A stretch of DNA of 34,815 bases from a virus, in IMG/VR virus record IMGVR_UViG_3300017917_000490, positions 1 to 34,815 of that record; one strand, written 5' to 3'. Numbering within the stretch: position 1 is the first letter of the stretch; every line of letters starts with the position of its first letter. Both the position numbers and the translations under genes were made by a program. Positions 5,189 through 14,863 of this stretch are shown one piece after another. The notes beneath the pieces were generated by a model. It was not told where the DNA came from. It ran no database searches and saw nothing but the letters and a program-made list of their open reading frames with translations.

Positions 5189-6310
5189 TTAAGCACTTCT
5201 GATATCTACACCAGCATAGTTGATGCCGGCAGCCGCGTTAGCAGCAAAAGCACCATTGAATGTGGCATAGAAATGTGTACCTGAGTTTTGATCGGTACCA
5301 TTGTTTGTGAAGTCAGTGATTTGATGACTTGTTAAACCATCAACGTAGACAGTATTTGTATCTGCTTTAGTAGCAAGAATATTCATTGTGTTTAATGTCA
5401 ATGCGTTATTTGCTAAGTTGGCAGTCTTACATACGCCTACTAGATGTGCTGTACCAGTTGTCGTTAATCCAGTACCATTAGCAGTAGCAGTAAATACCTT
5501 TCCTGCGGCTGCATCAGGACCAGCGCCTAGTGCTTGCCAATCAGTTGTACCAACGCTAACAATACGATAAGCACTTCCAGTTACAATATTTTCATCATTT
5601 ACGGTAGTGCCGTCAGCTACCAAGAACTTACGCTTACCACGCTGACGTAAAATATAACCGGCCGCGTTGTCAGCATAAACAAATGGCTGATCGGCTACTG
5701 TTTCTGTAGCATTGGCAGCAAGTGTTAATGGTTGTTGGTTTAAATTAGCAGTAATACCGTTTTGTGTAGTAACAGCGACTGCTGGACCACCTAATGTTGT
5801 AGAAACGGTAAAGTGAGTTGCGTTAGCAACACTCTTGATATAATAAGGTGTGTTAACACTAATTGCGTTGAATGTTGTATCAAACCATACTGGTGTACCT
5901 GCTCCACCTGAAGTTTGAGCATTTCCTGAAGTAACAATGAATGAACCTGTTGCTACAGTATTGGTGATTGCTAGAAGAATTCCAGATGGTACACTACCAC
6001 TTACTTTTCCTAAGTCAACAGTAGATCCTGTACTATCTACATATCCAACAGCACTGTTAGCTGACAAGAAAGATAGATTTGTAACCATACCATATGCTGT
6101 AGCATTACCGGCAGTTGTATACAATGTACCGCTTACAGCGGGTTTAGCAATAGCTACACGTGGTAGAATCTGTTCACCAGTAATACTGGTTGCGCCACCA
6201 ACGATACCATATGTATTGCTAGAACCATCTGGGTTATTAAAACCAGAGTCTACTAAACCATCAGGTACTGCAGCAGCGTTTGTTTTTACTATTTTTAATT
6301 TAGAGGGCAT
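5189..6310 (-). CDS. Virion structural or fibre-like protein
   Basis: This 373-residue protein is rich in Ala, Thr, Gly, Asn and Val and poor in charged residues, as in beta-rich phage surface proteins. It contains recognisable phage structural modules: TPYYIKSVANATHFTVSTT (middle) and YRIVSVGTTDWQALGAG with a following FTATANGTG (about residues 250-290). The start at 6310 has AAGGAA eight bases upstream. It has its own late promoter (6380-6387) and ends at the two-way terminator. It could be a head decoration, tail fibre or tail tip protein; composition and modules do not decide between these. Confidence 0.7.
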   Translation of the reverse strand: MPSKLKIVKTNAAAVPDGLVDSGFNNPDGSSNTYGIVGGATSITGEQILPRVAIAKPAVSGTLYTTAGNATAYGMVTNLSFLSANSAVGYVDSTGSTVDLGKVSGSVPSGILLAITNTVATGSFIVTSGNAQTSGGAGTPVWFDTTFNAISVNTPYYIKSVANATHFTVSTTLGGPAVAVTTQNGITANLNQQPLTLAANATETVADQPFVYADNAAGYILRQRGKRKFLVADGTTVNDENIVTGSAYRIVSVGTTDWQALGAGPDAAAGKVFTATANGTGLTTTGTAHLVGVCKTANLANNALTLNTMNILATKADTNTVYVDGLTSHQITDFTNNGTDQNSGTHFYATFNGAFAANAAAGINYAGVDIRSA

Positions 6311-6363
6311 TTTTTATTCCTTATGCGACCGTTCTAGGGCCCATACTCACCGAATGTGATATG

Positions 6364-6387
6364 AGTTCAATGAACTATGTATTTATC
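6364..6387 (-). promoter_or_regulatory. Late promoter (GATAAATA) with palindrome at its start site
   Basis: GATAAATA at 6387-6380 on the minus strand, 70 bases before the 5189-6310 gene. The expected start (about 6374) falls in the palindrome AGTTCAATGAACT (6364-6376). Confidence 0.65.
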
Positions 6388-6390
6388 AGA

Positions 6391-7665
6391 TTAGTTTAAA
6401 TCTATCCAAGCAGAGCCATCATATCCTTGGAATTTAGCTCCGGTCTGGTTGAATACCAGCATACCTTCCGCAGGGGAAGTAATTGCAGCATCTCTAGCAG
6501 TATCATCAACATATACCGGTAGTTGAATGAAACCTGTAGCAGTAAGATTAACTGAACTAACATTGTTGGCAGAACCTTCATCAAATGCTACGTTGCCTGT
6601 TACATTAATATTTCCGGTAACATTAACGTCTGTACCTACATCTAAATTTCCAACTACATTAGCGTTATTATTTACTTGAATGCTTGTGAATGTAGCATTA
6701 TTAGGTGTGGATGATCCTATTTCACCATCGACATATCCTATTACATTACCATTAACAAATCCTGTTATGTTTAAGTCACCGCTAATTGCTAATACGTTAG
6801 TAGTTTGGTCAAAAGTTAAAGCACTACTTCCACCTAACGCTGCGCCAGTATCGTTAAAGAGAATCTGGGTATTGCTAGTACCAACAAGTGTAATGTTTCC
6901 AGTTGGTGTGATTTGTCCTATAATGTCAGCAGAGTTTGCAGTATATCCAGCCCATAAAGGATTGTATCCTATTTTACTAGTAGCTGACGCCACGTTACTT
7001 TCGTCGTGTATTGTAAACGTTGTATTTGAAACTCTCGCTACATAGAATTGGTTTGTTGCGCTTACACCTGATGTTTGAATACTACTACGTACTGCTCCTG
7101 AAGGTAACACTCCGCTAATAGTGACGCTAGTTCCTGTACCAAAAAAGTGAGGAGTGCTTGTTGTCACTAGTGTGTTTCCGTCACCATTGTCAGAAAACCC
7201 TTGAATCTTGTATGCTAGTGCCCCGTTTGTAACCCAACTAAGATTACCTGTACCATCTGTTGCTAATACAAAACCATTTGTGCCACCAGTTATTTTCATA
7301 TTAGCGGCAGGACCTAAATTAATTTTGTTACTACTATATAAGAGATTTCCGTCGTAATTTTTTACGATGTTTCCTATGTTTGAATTGTAATCGATTACTA
7401 GTGTTTGACCAATTTGTATATTACTAGTGTTTAATGTTAAATTGCTAGAGCCAGTGATTTTTCCAAAACTTAATGGACTAGCGTCTGTTAGAATTTCAGT
7501 TTGTGTTGTTGCGCCAGGACCAACTGGAGGAATAATCGTAGGATCATTACCTATATATAAACGTTGCTCGTCTGTAGCAAAGCCCAACTCGCCTATGTCA
7601 AGTTGAGGCAAATCTACATTAGCCCCGGTTCTATGCTGAATTTTTGAAATCTGTACAATAGCCAT
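6391..7665 (-). CDS. Tail fibre/receptor-binding-like structural protein
   Basis: A 424-residue Asn/Thr/Gly-rich protein. The N-terminus (QISKIQHRTGANVDLPQLDIGELGFATDEQRLYIG; quoted here only as its key elements RTG, GELGFATD and LYIG) is the pattern found at the start of many phage fibre and tropism proteins. The centre has repeated GNI/GNV beta-strand-like steps (DLNITGFVNGNVIG, NVTGNINVTGNVA). The C-terminus has the module RDAAITSPAEGMLVFNQT and FQGYDGSAWIDL, common at fibre ends. It is preceded by a late promoter and a hairpin. It stands near the neck genes and another structural gene, which fits a late virion protein. The receptor is unknown. Confidence 0.7.
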   Translation of the reverse strand: MAIVQISKIQHRTGANVDLPQLDIGELGFATDEQRLYIGNDPTIIPPVGPGATTQTEILTDASPLSFGKITGSSNLTLNTSNIQIGQTLVIDYNSNIGNIVKNYDGNLLYSSNKINLGPAANMKITGGTNGFVLATDGTGNLSWVTNGALAYKIQGFSDNGDGNTLVTTSTPHFFGTGTSVTISGVLPSGAVRSSIQTSGVSATNQFYVARVSNTTFTIHDESNVASATSKIGYNPLWAGYTANSADIIGQITPTGNITLVGTSNTQILFNDTGAALGGSSALTFDQTTNVLAISGDLNITGFVNGNVIGYVDGEIGSSTPNNATFTSIQVNNNANVVGNLDVGTDVNVTGNINVTGNVAFDEGSANNVSSVNLTATGFIQLPVYVDDTARDAAITSPAEGMLVFNQTGAKFQGYDGSAWIDLN

Positions 7666-7702: not shown

Positions 7703-8389
7703 TTACAGGAACTTGGAATAGTATTCTTCTAACCTGCGGAACCAACGTGTTGTCCATTCATCAAATTCATTGCCCTCTACAATGAATTCCTGATATTCAT
7801 TGGCCGCTGAACACATAAAAATAACACCTTTTCTAATATTAGTTCCGTGAACTTCATTGTGAGCATTAGCGTAGGCAGCTAATTGTAGGAAATAATCCTC
7901 AATCCATTCACGTTTTTTAGGTTTATTTGTTTGTTTGTGGTCCATTATACATTCTAAGCCATCATGAACTCCTACTAGGTCAGTTGTACCTGCGTAAATT
8001 TTAGGGAAATACAATGGAACTTCTGTACCCCAAAATTCTGTACATTTACTCAATCCTCTTTCAATAATAGATTGAGCCATTTGATGTGATTGTTTGCTGT
8101 ATGGGTTGCTTCCGGGTTCACCGGTGGCGCCAGTTTTGACGTAGTTTTCTAGCCACTTGTGCATTCGTGTACCACGGCCCGCAGCCTCTGTAGTAATAGC
8201 TTGAGCCTGTTTATGACCCACTCTATTTCGCCATTCGTTTAGTTTTTCTATTTTTTCTTTTGGAGTTGTTGCGGAAAGTATTGTTGTTACGCTGGGTAAC
8301 TTTTCTCCATCAGGGGTAGCATATCGTCTTCCCTCTGGGGTGTCTATTCGATTGATAGACACATAATTAAATTTATTAGGTATGTACAT
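7703..8389 (-). CDS. PD-(D/E)XK nuclease (RecB/Cas4-like exonuclease fold)
   Basis: A 228-residue protein with the RecB-family nuclease motifs in order: His77 in GRGTRMH, Glu123 in GTEVPLYF, Asp137 in GTTDLVG, Asp150-x-Lys152 in CIMDHKQ and the Gln169-x3-Tyr173 motif in LQLAAYA. These are the metal-binding and catalytic positions of the family. T4-like marine phages carry similar single-domain nucleases (family memory). A role in DNA processing or host DNA degradation is plausible. The gene lies among late genes. Its ATG follows a hairpin and a seven-T run and has no Shine-Dalgarno, so its expression is unclear. Confidence 0.8.
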   Translation of the reverse strand: MYIPNKFNYVSINRIDTPEGRRYATPDGEKLPSVTTILSATTPKEKIEKLNEWRNRVGHKQAQAITTEAAGRGTRMHKWLENYVKTGATGEPGSNPYSKQSHQMAQSIIERGLSKCTEFWGTEVPLYFPKIYAGTTDLVGVHDGLECIMDHKQTNKPKKREWIEDYFLQLAAYANAHNEVHGTNIRKGVIFMCSAANEYQEFIVEGNEFDEWTTRWFRRLEEYYSKFL

Positions 8390-10983: not shown

Positions 10984-12174
10984 TTAGCGTCCCAATAGAT
11001 TCTGTCTACTGAAGCCCATTCTATCTACAAACTTGAATCCGTAAGCTACAAATCCTTCGTGTGTTTCAGTACCGTCTTGTAGGTACCCCTTGACAGGACT
11101 CTGTTCGTTCGCTCTGTCTAGTTGGGCTAAGATATTCATTTTTATCTTGTAAATGTCTATCCAAATTCTAAAGGCCGCTTCCATAGCAGGTTCGTATCTT
11201 TCTAGGTGGCCAGGATGCCATGTTCCTGAGTCATCTTCATAGCCAAATAATGACATTCTGACTTTATCGCTCATAGGTCTTGTACTTAGATATTCGATAA
11301 AGTCATCATATAGATTTTCAAATGACCCTTGTCTAACTTTTTGATTTATATAAACTGTAAACAAATTGCTGTTTAGAAAGGATTTCGTTCCTTCCGGTGG
11401 GGATAACATTGCGTCAATTTGTTGTCCGTACTTGTTTATATAAGATAACGCATCATTTATTAACGAATTATCGATTGTTAACTTAGGAGTTATCGGCATT
11501 TTGCTAGGTAAAATAGCTACGTTACTATTATTCTTTAATTGCCCTAAGGATCCCTCTAGACTTTTACCATCATCGGTGCTCTGAGCATTAGCGGGAAGAT
11601 ATGTATGAACTGCTATACCTGCTACTTTGTTTTTCAGTAGTTGACCATAATATTTGTCATTAGCATCTACTTTATAAGTGATTCCGTTTGGGTTGGCTCT
11701 GAATGTATAGAATCCATTCTTTTCTTGTAGAGGTTGTTTGAATAATAAATCTCCCCAATAGTATCCCGCAGCCTGATCTTCTTTAGCAAGACCTTCCCAA
11801 ATAGTTTCTAACGTCTGATATAAGTCACCCCTGTTAACGCCGCGATCAGCATCGTATTTCATAAACATTTCGGGGGTATAACACATTCTTCCCGTACCGT
11901 CTTTTTTATTGAACATGTGCTTATCCATCATGGCGAACTTACCGTTTGGACCTCTACCAAAGATAAGAGCAGGATAACCGTCCCACTTAATAGTGACTAC
12001 TTGAGGATTTTTAACTACATTTGTTATAGATTGTAAGGCAGTCTTAGCGTAACTAGACCCACCTAGAAAAATAGAATCTTCTGGATGGTCTATATGTCCT
12101 TTTGCTTCATTTAATTTTTGAAGTTGAACTTTGCTATTTTCTAAAAGACTACGAAAAATATTTAAAGATTCCAT
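10984..12174 (-). CDS. Ligase-like nucleotidyltransferase, unassigned family
   Basis: A 396-residue protein with elements of the covalent nucleotidyltransferase (DNA/RNA ligase and capping enzyme) fold in order: motif I Lys63-Trp-Asp-Gly66 in VTIKWDGYPALIFGR, a motif III-like YYWGDLLF (residues 138-145), and near the C-terminus Glu373-Gly-Phe-Val with Lys381 in GFKFVDR, resembling motifs IV and V. The family would adenylate Lys63. Preceding residues 28-40 (HIDHPEDSIFLGGSS) are conserved in phage relatives by memory. The protein starts MESLNIFRSLLENS, with LLE near a possible prohead-protease site. ATG overlaps the upstream stop as TAATG. It is in a late-promoted unit, unlike the early T4 ligases. 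Activity is inferred. Confidence 0.65.
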   Translation of the reverse strand: MESLNIFRSLLENSKVQLQKLNEAKGHIDHPEDSIFLGGSSYAKTALQSITNVVKNPQVVTIKWDGYPALIFGRGPNGKFAMMDKHMFNKKDGTGRMCYTPEMFMKYDADRGVNRGDLYQTLETIWEGLAKEDQAAGYYWGDLLFKQPLQEKNGFYTFRANPNGITYKVDANDKYYGQLLKNKVAGIAVHTYLPANAQSTDDGKSLEGSLGQLKNNSNVAILPSKMPITPKLTIDNSLINDALSYINKYGQQIDAMLSPPEGTKSFLNSNLFTVYINQKVRQGSFENLYDDFIEYLSTRPMSDKVRMSLFGYEDDSGTWHPGHLERYEPAMEAAFRIWIDIYKIKMNILAQLDRANEQSPVKGYLQDGTETHEGFVAYGFKFVDRMGFSRQNLLGR

Positions 12175-13187
12175 TATTTTCTTCTATAGAAAGGTCTATT
12201 TTCTGCTACCTTAGGACTACGTCTTGCGGGTACTTCTGGATTTCTGTTATTTTTCCAAACCGCAGGGGAAGGATTTACTTTAGTAAACGGCACCATATTT
12301 TGTTGTGCGTTACTTGCCGCAGCAGCTTGTTTTTGCTGTCTGATTTCGCTAGGTATAGGTCCTGAATTAGCAGGTAATTTACTAAACGGAATCATGTTTT
12401 GTTGTGCCGCATCCGCAGCAGTCGCTTGTTTTTGCTGTCTAATTTCACCCGGCGTAGGTTCTGACTTAGCGGGTAATTTACTAAACGGAGTCATTTGTTG
12501 CTGGGCGTTAAGAGCCGCTGCCGCAAGTTTTTGTTTTCTTATTTCAGCAGGATCTTGTGGGTTTACGGCACCTAATTTTTTAACATCAGATTTGCCGGTC
12601 ATAATTTCTTTGTACAACTCTGTATAACGAGCAGGATTTTGTTTATATAACTGACGCATAGCGTTTTTAGCTATTTGTTCTAAATCGTCATAGTTATCTT
12701 TGCCAGTCAATTTACTAATTTGCTTAATAGTTTGCTGTGTGGGTTGACTTAATTCGGGCGCGGGTTCTGCTTGGGCCATTTGACCTCCAGCTTGCCCCCC
12801 TGCTTGTCCACCAGCTGGTGCTGCCTGTTGTCCACCAATTACGTTACCTGTCTTGGGATTGCGAAGTTGCTTGCTACCCATATAATACATGTAGTTAGCC
12901 AACTCATCGATATCTCCTCTAGAAGCCATATCTTGTATTCTAGCCTGATCTTGTGGATTAGCGACCCAACCATACTGACTTAAGTAAGAATTTGCCAACT
13001 CAGGCAAATCAAAGTATTTTCCAGCAGATTGTTGATTCAACTTAACTTGTTGCTTGAATCTTTTTAAAAAATTATCTTTGGCGGCAAGTTCATTGGCTTC
13101 AGGACCACCAATACCTAGGTTACGGTACATGCTAGTACGTATTTGATCTATGGGTCCTAACTCTGTGATAACTTCTTTAAGTTTCAT
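12174..13187 (-). CDS. Repeat-containing Gln/Ala-rich late protein
   Basis: A 337-residue protein starting MKLKEVITELGPI at ATG 13187, preceded by GAGGAAGAAGG inside the upstream gene (11-base overlap). Residues 1-110 are helical. Residues 117-148 form a Gly/Gln/Ala/Pro linker (GGQAGGQAGGQ). Residues 212-310 are three tandem 33-residue repeats with the core EIRQQKQAAA...NMxPFSKLP. The tail is basic (RRSPKVAENRPFYRRK). Low complexity, repeats and a basic end suggest a flexible DNA-contacting or scaffold-like virion-associated protein; this is inference. It is followed by the ligase-like gene with a TAATG overlap. Confidence 0.7.
   Translation of the reverse strand: MKLKEVITELGPIDQIRTSMYRNLGIGGPEANELAAKDNFLKRFKQQVKLNQQSAGKYFDLPELANSYLSQYGWVANPQDQARIQDMASRGDIDELANYMYYMGSKQLRNPKTGNVIGGQQAAPAGGQAGGQAGGQMAQAEPAPELSQPTQQTIKQISKLTGKDNYDDLEQIAKNAMRQLYKQNPARYTELYKEIMTGKSDVKKLGAVNPQDPAEIRKQKLAAAALNAQQQMTPFSKLPAKSEPTPGEIRQQKQATAADAAQQNMIPFSKLPANSGPIPSEIRQQKQAAAASNAQQNMVPFTKVNPSPAVWKNNRNPEVPARRSPKVAENRPFYRRK
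12258..12554 (-). repeat. Three tandem 99-bp coding repeats
   Basis: Three in-frame copies of 99 bases encode 33-residue units aligned at Glu215, Glu248 and Glu281 (EIRKQK, EIRQQK, EIRQQK; then TPFSKLP, IPFSKLP, VPFTKVN). The second and third copies are closest, suggesting a more recent duplication. Confidence 0.85.
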
Positions 13188-13422
13188 CCTTCTTCCTCAG
13201 ACTTTTACTGAATCTACCTTGGTCTCTAGACTTAATAGCACTGAGGAGTTTTCGCTCTAAAATTTGAGCTTTTTCTTGGTCATAATGCTTATTAATCATT
13301 TCTAATAGATTAATAGCACTTGTGATAATATTGTGTGCGCGGCTTTCTATGACATGTTTAGTATCACGGTTGTTACCGATCGCTTCCAATTCCTCTAATA
13401 GGCTACGAGTTTTTCTCTGCAT
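13177..13422 (-). CDS. Unknown small late protein
   Basis: An 81-residue, highly charged, helical protein (MQRKTRSLLEELEAIG...; basic end RFSKSLRKKDET). ATG 13422 is preceded by AGGA and by a late promoter at 13442-13449, so it opens the unit that continues with the repeat protein and the ligase-like protein. Its stop lies 11 bases inside the next gene. No motif recognised. Confidence 0.6.
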   Translation of the reverse strand: MQRKTRSLLEELEAIGNNRDTKHVIESRAHNIITSAINLLEMINKHYDQEKAQILERKLLSAIKSRDQGRFSKSLRKKDET

Positions 13423-13441: not shown

Positions 13442-13449
13442 TATTTATG
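13442..13449 (-). promoter_or_regulatory. T4-type late promoter (CATAAATA)
   Basis: CATAAATA on the minus strand, overlapping the last codons of gp41 and 20 bases before ATG 13422. It would uncouple the late unit 13422-10984 from helicase transcription. Confidence 0.6.
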
Positions 13450-14863
13450 CTTTTTTAATAGAGTTGAGTAATGATTGAAGTTTGGCACCTTTAGCGTCTA
13501 CAACTACTTTTTTCTGCGGAATTTCGATATTTCCAACAATTTCATTTACTGTACTTTGTGGTTTTAATTTACTCATTATATCGTTGGGGCTAGGCTGAGG
13601 ATTATTTCCCCTAAACCTCGCTTGTTCAGGATCTTCTGGATTGGGGTCTGTAATCCTTAGTGTTTCAATGTCAAACGCTAATTCAATCTTTTGTCCTACA
13701 CCAGAACTACTACGTGTTTTCATCAACTGTAATTGATACTGACCACGCTCACGCATACTACGACTTGTAAAGATACCAAACACGTTGTCAGCAGTATTAA
13801 TCTTTGAGATACCACCTGAAATATGACTATGGTCAAATTCAATTTCTTCAACTGCCGATCGGTTCAACTGAGATGCTGTGACAAATAGCACGTTTAATTC
13901 TTTAGCTAAATTACGCAATTCCTCCGACACATACTTGTCCTTAACGAACAAGTCTGATGGGCTGACTTTTGCGCTGACAGGCATAAGCAAGTCTAGATAA
14001 TCGACACACAAAAAGTCAATCTTTGTTCCTGTCTGAATTTCTAATTCTTTACAATAGGCCCGTAAGTCATTTACTGTCGATTGTGCTGGCATATACTTGA
14101 TTCGTAATTTACCAGATTTCTTAGCAATCATTTTAACTTTCATTTCAATCTCATCAATTGACTTGAAAATCTCACGGCTACTTGTCTCAGTCATCATACT
14201 ATCAATACGCATCGAACAAAGTCCTTCACTTAGTTCAAGCGTAACATATACACCATTCAAACCCATGTGAGTCCAGTTAACTGCTAAGTTTTGCATAAAC
14301 AGACTCTTACCAGAACCTGAACCACCTGCGAAAATCTGTAGTTCTCCTCGATTGAAACCCCCATATAGTTTCTGATCCATACAAGGCCAGCCTGTAGAGT
14401 TTTGTCCGTTGTTGCTTTTTAGTTGCATTAGTCGGGCTCTCGGGTCAGCAAAATAATCTGTACCCATGTCTCGTTGTAGACTGATTTGGACAGCATCTTT
14501 AATCAATTTCTCTACAGGATCATATTCGCCCTTCTCAAGTAAATCGGCTGACTTGAGAATCGCACGTTCTAGTTCTTGGCGCTTAGTAAACTTTTCGAAC
14601 TCTGTCAAAAACCATTCATAATGACCATCGGACAAATCTTCCAATGGTTCGATGTCCATATCTGTTGTTGCCTTAATCTGTGCTGTATCTGGAAGAACTT
14701 TATATTTGTCAGTGTGTTCCTTGAAGAACTCGGCAACTGGACGCAGACTCTTATCGAAATTTGCGACATTCATAATGTTAGCTACACGGGTATACAACTC
14801 CGCATTAGTCAACATCATTCTGAGAAATACCTTTTGTACTTCTACGTTATATTCCTTTAGCAA
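13445..14863 (-). CDS. gp41: gp41-like replicative DNA helicase (DnaB family)
   Basis: A 472-residue hexameric 5'-3' helicase that would unwind DNA at the phage fork together with the gp61 primase. Residues 1-130 match the N-terminal domain of T4 gp41 in layout. The RecA-like core has Walker A GGSGSGKS (180-187), the ELSE element after the next strand, and Walker B FLCVDYLDLLM (about 281-291), followed by TASQLNRSA and QLMKTRSSSGVG motifs of DnaB-like proteins. The start is TTG 14863: AGGAAG lies upstream inside the primase gene, and the residues after this TTG match the family's start. It overlaps gp61 by 17 bases. The C-terminal 60 residues are Pro/Asn-rich. Confidence 0.93.
   Translation of the reverse strand: MLKEYNVEVQKVFLRMMLTNAELYTRVANIMNVANFDKSLRPVAEFFKEHTDKYKVLPDTAQIKATTDMDIEPLEDLSDGHYEWFLTEFEKFTKRQELERAILKSADLLEKGEYDPVEKLIKDAVQISLQRDMGTDYFADPRARLMQLKSNNGQNSTGWPCMDQKLYGGFNRGELQIFAGGSGSGKSLFMQNLAVNWTHMGLNGVYVTLELSEGLCSMRIDSMMTETSSREIFKSIDEIEMKVKMIAKKSGKLRIKYMPAQSTVNDLRAYCKELEIQTGTKIDFLCVDYLDLLMPVSAKVSPSDLFVKDKYVSEELRNLAKELNVLFVTASQLNRSAVEEIEFDHSHISGGISKINTADNVFGIFTSRSMRERGQYQLQLMKTRSSSGVGQKIELAFDIETLRITDPNPEDPEQARFRGNNPQPSPNDIMSKLKPQSTVNEIVGNIEIPQKKVVVDAKGAKLQSLLNSIKKA

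Follow-up and report, generated by a model that had tools for sequence, protein, structure and literature searches.

A phage DUF6267 protein is a predicted nucleotidyltransferase of the ligase superfamily with a putative head-packaging segment

Introduction

What kind of enzyme is encoded by the minus-strand gene at positions 10984-12174 of a phage genome fragment, and where might it act? The window that we analysed is the whole 34,815-nucleotide stretch of IMG/VR virus record IMGVR_UViG_3300017917_000490, a 34.8-kb fragment. The first-pass annotation, made from the letters of the DNA, described the product as a late-expressed, ligase-like nucleotidyltransferase of no known group that might be packaged and act at entry, for example in DNA end or RNA repair.

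A gp30 ligase is missing from cyanomyoviruses (PMC2984593), a gap that would be closed by assigning this protein to the ligases; the assignment would also add an architecture that has an inserted helical domain and no OB domain. It would further make it possible to test concretely whether DNA-repair enzymes are injected by phages. Injected repair enzymes would matter for virions damaged by UV or oxidation in surface waters.

Family membership

The open reading frame is present as the annotation had described it:

10984..12174, minus strand: predicted DUF6267 ligase-like nucleotidyltransferase, 396 aa, ATG start (Pfam, AlphaFold2 model and fold matches)

A Pfam scan placed the protein in DUF6267 (PF19782) over residues 27-393 (E = 4e-40), scoring 138.8 bits against a curated cut-off of 27 and covering profile positions 3-372 of 376. 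The protein also matched PHROG 455 (phrog_455, E = 2e-30), and the P-SSM4 member of the family is annotated T4-GC 71. The match to the family is full length; the window's clade adds a putative N-terminal propeptide that marine cyanophage members do not have. The statement that the protein belongs to no known group thus holds for function and not for family: DUF6267/PHROG 455 is already named, and neither Pfam nor PHROGs assigns it a function. DUF6267 was not mentioned in the full-text literature that we searched.

The family is widespread. The window protein found 261 phage records by tblastn, and a cyanophage member found at least 470, mostly marine cyanophages and nearly all T4-like cyanophages, in which the gene is annotated 'hypothetical protein'. 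Scanning IMG/VR with the single window sequence returned no relatives, and scanning it with an alignment returned 531. Known ligase families were not recognised by sequence. A Pfam scan of 63 DUF6267 members matched no ligase family, and PF09511 (T4 Rnl1) and PF09414 (Rnl2-type RNA_ligase) were absent from the 25 families listed for these members. Likewise, phmmer and profile searches of PDB sequences gave no match to the ligase-like family up to E = 10, and PF01068 (DNA_ligase_A_M) had no match anywhere in the window.

Conserved motifs

The ligase reading originated in four words, KWDG, YYWGDLLF, EGFV and FKFV, that occur in the order of ligase or capping motifs I, III, IV and V. All four are real; YYWGDLLF spans residues 138-145 and FKFV spans residues 380-383. 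The motifs lie at the following positions, with III and IIIa assigned by eye:

11977..11988, minus strand: motif I, K63-W-D-G66, with the predicted nucleophile Lys63 (K63, D65 and G66 in 63/63; hhalign)
11743..11754, minus strand: motif III-like G141-D142-L-L (D142 in 63/63, G141 in 61/63)
11047..11058, minus strand: motif IV, E373-G-F-V376 (E373 and G374 in 63/63)
11020..11034, minus strand: motif V-like K381-F-V-D-R385 (K381 and R385 in 63/63)

Conservation was assessed in an alignment of 63 IMG/VR homologues with a mean column identity of about 25-26%. Only 20 positions in the whole protein are invariant in this alignment, and seven of the 20 motif residues named in the first-pass annotation are among them (K63, D65, G66, D142, E373, G374 and K381; hypergeometric P = 1.4e-5). 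Lys63, whose loss in homologues would have counted against the ligase reading, is thus present in every member. W64 is kept in 61/63, as is G141, and V376 and V383 are each kept in 60/63. Further invariant residues are K85, R385, H190, N277 and K345. The seven invariant named residues appear to sit where motifs I, III, IV and V of a ligase are expected, and even the shortened cyanophage member from P-SSM4 retains K63, D65, G66, E373, G374 and K381.

Some positions depart from the usual pattern. Polynucleotide ligases usually carry Arg or Asn at the position matching Pro68, which stands two residues past the KxDG glycine, at the motif I arginine position. Motif III carries Asp. The two lysines of a KxK motif V were not found, as the second position is Val (V383) in 60/63 and Ile in the rest. 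With V383 in place of the second motif V lysine and with Pro68, sealing chemistry could be lost or altered. The protein could then have kept the ligase fold and no longer ligate: it could transfer NMP to another acceptor, such as an RNA 5' end, a small molecule or a protein, or serve as a packaged structural protein. The single motif V lysine, the motif III Asp and the missing motif I arginine all fit this reading, as does the fusion of some members to a HIGH-type NMNAT/cytidylyltransferase-like domain, a type known for small-molecule chemistry. However, the main catalytic positions are all invariant at about 25% identity, which argues for catalysis, and linkage to a Pol X-like gene (see below) argues for nucleic-acid ends. 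We consider loss of ligation quite improbable.

Predicted fold

Structure prediction had been proposed as a check on the ligase assignment. The AlphaFold2 model of the window protein is confident (pLDDT 93.4, pTM 0.88) and shows a ligase-like fold. Foldseek found nothing significant in the PDB, its best match being a tRNA ligase adenylyltransferase domain at E = 0.21. When the Foldseek candidates were compared by VIA, ligases made up all of the best 50 rows (50/50, Z 5.4-7.8). Naegleria RNA ligase was the top match (Z 7.8, 4.0 Å over 176 residues), followed by trypanosome REL1 (7.0), T4 Rnl1 (6.9), T4 Rnl2 (6.5) and Trl1 (6.3), and DNA ligases scored about 5.4-6. The tool itself rates a Z below 8 as middling, and we therefore rely on the ligase-only list of rows together with the invariant motifs. 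The folds matching the window protein are those of ATP-type ligases; no capping enzyme was among the best 50 VIA rows, a result that leaves room for a capping (GTP) identity. The same fold is found in BFVD in independently predicted cyanophage proteins, and in one of them, from S-PM2, it is fused to a cytidyltransferase-like domain.

The model also shows an unusual architecture, with a long insertion and almost nothing after motif V:

11107..11469, minus strand: helical insert, residues 236-356 (about 120 residues), before motif IV (DSSP of the AlphaFold2 model)

The protein ends 11 residues past R385, and the single short helix after motif V leaves no OB domain of the DNA ligase type and no C-terminal domain of the Rnl1/Rnl2 type. 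The window protein shares its fold class and motif order with Rnl-type RNA ligases (T4 Rnl1, Rnl2, NgrRnl-type, REL1 and Trl1). It differs from them in the insert before motif IV, the lack of anything after motif V, the single motif V lysine, the Pro in place of Arg after KxDG and the lack of a Pfam match. ATP-dependent DNA ligases (T4 gp30, ASFV ligase and LigIV) share the catalytic-core fold, and the sister-clade linkage of DUF6267 with a Pol X-like enzyme is a further likeness; unlike them, the window protein has no duplex-clamping C-terminal OB domain and no PF01068 match.

Profile comparisons provide a second link to known ligases. In hhalign, the family aligned weakly with NgrRnl-type phage RNA ligases with motif I in register (P = 0.0077), and the other profile-profile pairings gave P = 0.03, 0.81 and 0.79. 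The jumbo phages Atu_ph07, Phosso and PA5oct, which we reached through the Pol X-like partner, encode a ligase-like protein next door to it. In these proteins EKLDGS or EKIDGY is followed by a basic segment, and EG(V/Y)V and K-(I/V)-V-D-K come after it. Against Pfam RNA_ligase (PF09414), the Atu_ph07 protein gives E = 0.002 over profile positions 3-169 of 171, below the curated cut-off, and the Phosso protein gives E = 0.085. The two are related to each other at 1e-23, and PA5oct joins them at 1e-5; the E = 2.5e-5 from the jumbo-phage comparison applies to a set of 38 proteins. The PA5oct ligase-like protein EST35_0228 scored 15.0 bits with the DUF6267 HMM, compared with at most 9.0 in 5000 shuffles and at most 7.4 among 1537 other proteins:

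L186:3306-4646 and 5902-6615: PA5oct ligase-like and Pol X-like genes (EST35_0228 and EST35_0231)

The jumbo-phage cousins and the profile comparisons that are in register at motif I weakly tie DUF6267 to the ligase superfamily, in steps that are each weak and mutually consistent. Taking the fold and the invariant motif residues together, the window protein is very probably a covalent nucleotidyltransferase of the ligase superfamily, as the first-pass annotation had proposed.

These matches also bear on the substrate. A head-packaged RNA (tRNA) repair ligase could act at entry against RNases such as the anticodon nucleases of the host, with a Polβ-type partner restoring lost nucleotides, as proposed for RlaP beside phage RNA ligases. 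The nearest solved folds among the best 50 VIA rows are RNA ligases, a jumbo cousin matches Pfam RNA_ligase, a relative (L038) weakly matches RNA_lig_T4_1 (PF09511, E = 0.051), and the model has no OB domain. The partner genes described below weigh on both sides of this reading.

Late unit

In the window's clade the gene order is primase, helicase, an 81-aa gene, a clade-specific gene, the DUF6267 gene and 3-5 small genes. Beyond these comes a PD-(D/E)XK exonuclease, at window positions 7703-8389 (phrog_298, E = 5e-56); in most clade relatives it lies a few genes past the ligase-like gene. The features upstream of the DUF6267 gene are:

12174..13187, minus strand: clade-specific upstream gene, 337 aa, with low-complexity stretches and no family (homologous group UPS33)
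13177..13422, minus strand: 81-aa virion protein family (phrog_11854 'virion structural protein', E = 3e-18), which opens the unit
13442..13449, minus strand: late-promoter-like CATAAATA, 27 bp before the start codon of the 81-aa gene
13445..14863, minus strand: DnaB-like (gp41-type) replicative helicase of the neighbouring unit (DnaB_C 2e-20, phrog_19 2e-68)

UPS33 lies directly upstream of the DUF6267 gene in L008, L026, L033 and L034, and the 81-aa gene is directly upstream in 59 of 86 loci. A conserved [IV]IES site is also present in the 81-aa family, around residue 24, and the 337-aa protein has a prohead-signal-like start. TAAATA occurs no more than 60 bp upstream of the 81-aa gene in 54 of 57 relatives, compared with 8.6 expected by shuffling, and before the helicase in 1 of 44. 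The exact T4 late promoter TATAAATA is at chance level in the window (5 found, 4.7 expected) and no copy precedes the ligase gene itself; only a comparison of relatives at the first gene of the unit brings out the signal. These data support the earlier claim that the DUF6267 gene would belong to a late unit in the window's clade.

A tree separates the window's clade, a Pol X-bearing sister clade and the marine cyanophages. Across clades, the helicase and the DUF6267 gene keep the same relative order. In the large sister clade a Pol X-like gene of 230-310 aa stands where the window's clade has its 337-aa gene. Marine cyanophages have a HIGH-type cytidyltransferase/NMNAT-like gene directly after the DUF6267 gene.

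N-terminal segment and packaging

The protein begins with a segment that the first-pass annotation took for a possible prohead-protease site. LNE|A is present, and the position of the site is conserved:

12106..12174, minus strand: N-terminal propeptide or capsid-targeting-like segment, residues 1-23, with a predicted cut at LNE|A (residues 21-24)

The cleavage consensus of the T4 prohead protease is of the [LIVM]xE|[AGSD] type. Homologues carry IKE|D, LVE|A or ITE|A at this position, just before a K-G-H-(L/I)-D-H-P-E-D block, and pLDDT in the AlphaFold2 model is low at residues 17-24. We scored [LIVM]xE[AGSD] within the first 35 aa. This signal was present in 64/86 DUF6267 proteins, 26/28 Pol X-like proteins and 10/12 HIGH-type proteins. 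Among controls it occurred in 1/49 helicases, 3/30 primases, 0/46 c3 proteins and 1/45 proteins of another neighbour, and random internal windows of the three families gave a background of 0.06-0.12 (0.07 for DUF6267). Marine cyanophage DUF6267 proteins have no such segment, and their start corresponds to the predicted mature N terminus of the other family members. Likewise, jumbo-phage Pol X-like proteins start with M-GG-x-x-F or M-S-G-x-x-F, exactly or nearly where the mature form of their T4-like counterparts is predicted to begin (E|GGNVF). These starts suggest that the N-terminal segment comes and goes as a unit.

In T4, a capsid targeting sequence has a packaging role (PMC3012670). The T4 internal proteins and Alt resemble the DUF6267 protein in their short N-terminal segment with a prohead-protease-type site and their late expression (PMC3012670); there is no sequence relation between them, and DUF6267 packaging is a prediction from sequence. 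Several partner proteins have been detected in virions, in proteomes that come from phages outside the window's clade. By mass spectrometry, the HIGH-type protein was found in virions of S-SM1 (PMC3037559) and S-SZBM1 (PMC9146016). It was also found in S-CREM2 virions, where the authors did not exclude contamination (PMC10665884), and an NMNAT-like protein was detected in S-SCSM1 virions (PMC9602691). The PA5oct Pol X-like protein (EST35_0231) is annotated 'structural protein, ESI-MS/MS'. The HIGH-type neighbour in S-SZBM1, which starts MRFRQFIIE|A, is in the virion list of that phage, and the DUF6267 protein SSZBM1_141, which has no segment, is absent from the same 30-protein list (PMC9146016), weak evidence in itself. 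This single comparison fits, weakly, with the N-terminal segment deciding packaging. In the window's clade, the DUF6267 protein is probably packaged in the head.

These observations can be set against another proposal, that the protein is the 'missing' gp30, an ordinary replicative or repair DNA ligase that acts in the infected cell and is not virion-borne. The gene shares its neighbourhood with the gp41 helicase and the gp61 primase. Cyanophage versions lack the packaging signal, and SSZBM1_141 was not among the listed virion proteins. No g30 homologue has been recognised in cyanomyoviruses, and a review allows for distant homologues that have escaped recognition (PMC2984593). DNA_ligase_A_M and NAD-ligase families, the canonical ones, were not found in P-TIM40, P-SSM4, S-SZBM1, Melnitz or two long contigs of the window's clade, the completeness of these contigs being unproven. 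However, 4 of 10 genomes bearing DUF6267 also have a canonical DNA ligase, and in the window's clade a late promoter and a virion gene precede the DUF6267 gene, whose product has the packaging-like segment. In addition, the host ligase can substitute for gp30 in T4 (PMC2984593). We regard this proposal as improbable.

Partner genes

The Pol X-like partner of the sister clade keeps three Polβ-type active-site aspartates (GS/GT...SGDxD...VQxD). Its AlphaFold2 model (pLDDT 89.4) matched Pol mu in Foldseek (E = 1.7e-4), and family X was matched over palm and thumb, with VIA Z of 9.5-10 to Pol lambda, beta and mu. Pol X entries are very many, so other Polβ families may be crowded out of this list. 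A profile search of PDB sequences gave one irrelevant match only, and two partner sequences matched AbiEii (E = 0.0034). In an independent search for Pol X-like genes, 72 of 74 were either fused to DUF6267 or followed by it on the same strand; for one of the remaining 2, the contig ends too soon to tell. The small polymerase at L041:1286-2053 and about 100 relatives are unnamed in Pfam, PHROGs and NCBIfam; they have a capsid-targeting-like N terminus, and in nearly every case they precede DUF6267 or are fused to it.

Fusions of the Pol X-like and DUF6267 proteins occur in L038 and L067. L073:3817-6006, one reading frame open at the contig end, joins Pol X-like, DUF6267 and HIGH-type parts, starts MLNE|S, and would be a direct handle for biochemistry. 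Neither partner was found in the window or in two long contigs of its clade (completeness unproven), so that the partners' function is not simply transferable to the window's clade.

The partner bears on the choice between RNA and DNA. Polβ-superfamily RlaP enzymes beside RNA ligases are an accepted phage RNA-repair theme (PMC7824862), DUF6267 likewise has a Polβ-superfamily enzyme beside it, and the AbiEii matches also favour RNA repair. By fold, the partner looks like Pol X, as family X DNA polymerases are matched in both palm and thumb, with the caveat that other Polβ families may be crowded out. No end-healing kinase or phosphatase was recognised beside the DUF6267 gene. Moreover, a phage of the window's clade (L013's phage, L163:419-1453) has a separate NgrRnl-type RNA ligase, so the DUF6267 protein is not its sole ligase-like protein. 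An RNA-repair kit was our first guess and was demoted once the partner's fold proved Pol X-like. An RNA repair ligase is, in our view, unlikely.

For DNA there is a precedent. Phaeocystis globosa virus, a giant algal virus, has a PolX-ligase fusion that combines gap filling and sealing (PMC5537341). A Pol X-type core and a ligase share one protein or operon there, as in L038, L067 and L073, but that ligase is of the NAD+-dependent family, comes from a giant virus and has no prohead signal, unlike DUF6267. The Pol X-like partner and this precedent favour DNA, and the fold ranking and the RlaP-RNA ligase modules (PMC7824862) favour RNA. On balance, we somewhat favour DNA as the substrate.

Proposed role

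The family, invariant motifs, fold class, late unit, propeptide-like segment and sister-clade Pol X linkage were all found by computation, and from them we infer catalytic activity, an AMP donor, cleavage, packaging, a DNA rather than RNA substrate and action at entry. Lys63 would accept AMP from ATP and transfer it to a nucleic-acid end that bears a 5'-phosphate, after which the nick or join would be sealed. For the window's clade, we propose late synthesis, then entry into the prohead, directed by the N-terminal segment, and trimming by the prohead protease at Glu23|Ala24. The protein would be delivered with the genome and repair broken phage DNA as it enters the cell. The result that no canonical DNA ligase family was found in the two long contigs of the window's clade agrees with this role. 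The sister-clade proteins may do the same job with the Pol X-like gap-filling polymerase, adjacent or fused. We give about an even chance that the window protein is a divergent polynucleotide ligase, packaged in the head, that seals nicks or ends at entry, and a slightly smaller one that what it seals at entry is DNA.

A broader and more tentative possibility is that T4-like and some jumbo phages pack and inject a three-enzyme end-repair kit that mends the genome before gene expression. The kit would consist of a Pol X-like gap filler, DUF6267 as a new family of minimal ligases and a HIGH-type nucleotidyltransferase, and the window's clade would have the ligase alone.

Two further loci with Pol X-like genes encode unusual neighbours. 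In Atu_ph07, a tandem array of four genes lies downstream of the Pol X-like one (L188:6603-9980); their products share 'PLYRG' motifs, have prohead-signal-like starts (M-R/K-W-x-Q-L-x-E) and are perhaps packaged ADP-ribosyltransferase-like enzymes. In Flavobacterium phage immuto (L189:4914-7637), the Pol X-like gene is followed by a 907-aa protein with a Polβ-type NTase, a HIGH-type NTase and a metalloprotease-like region.
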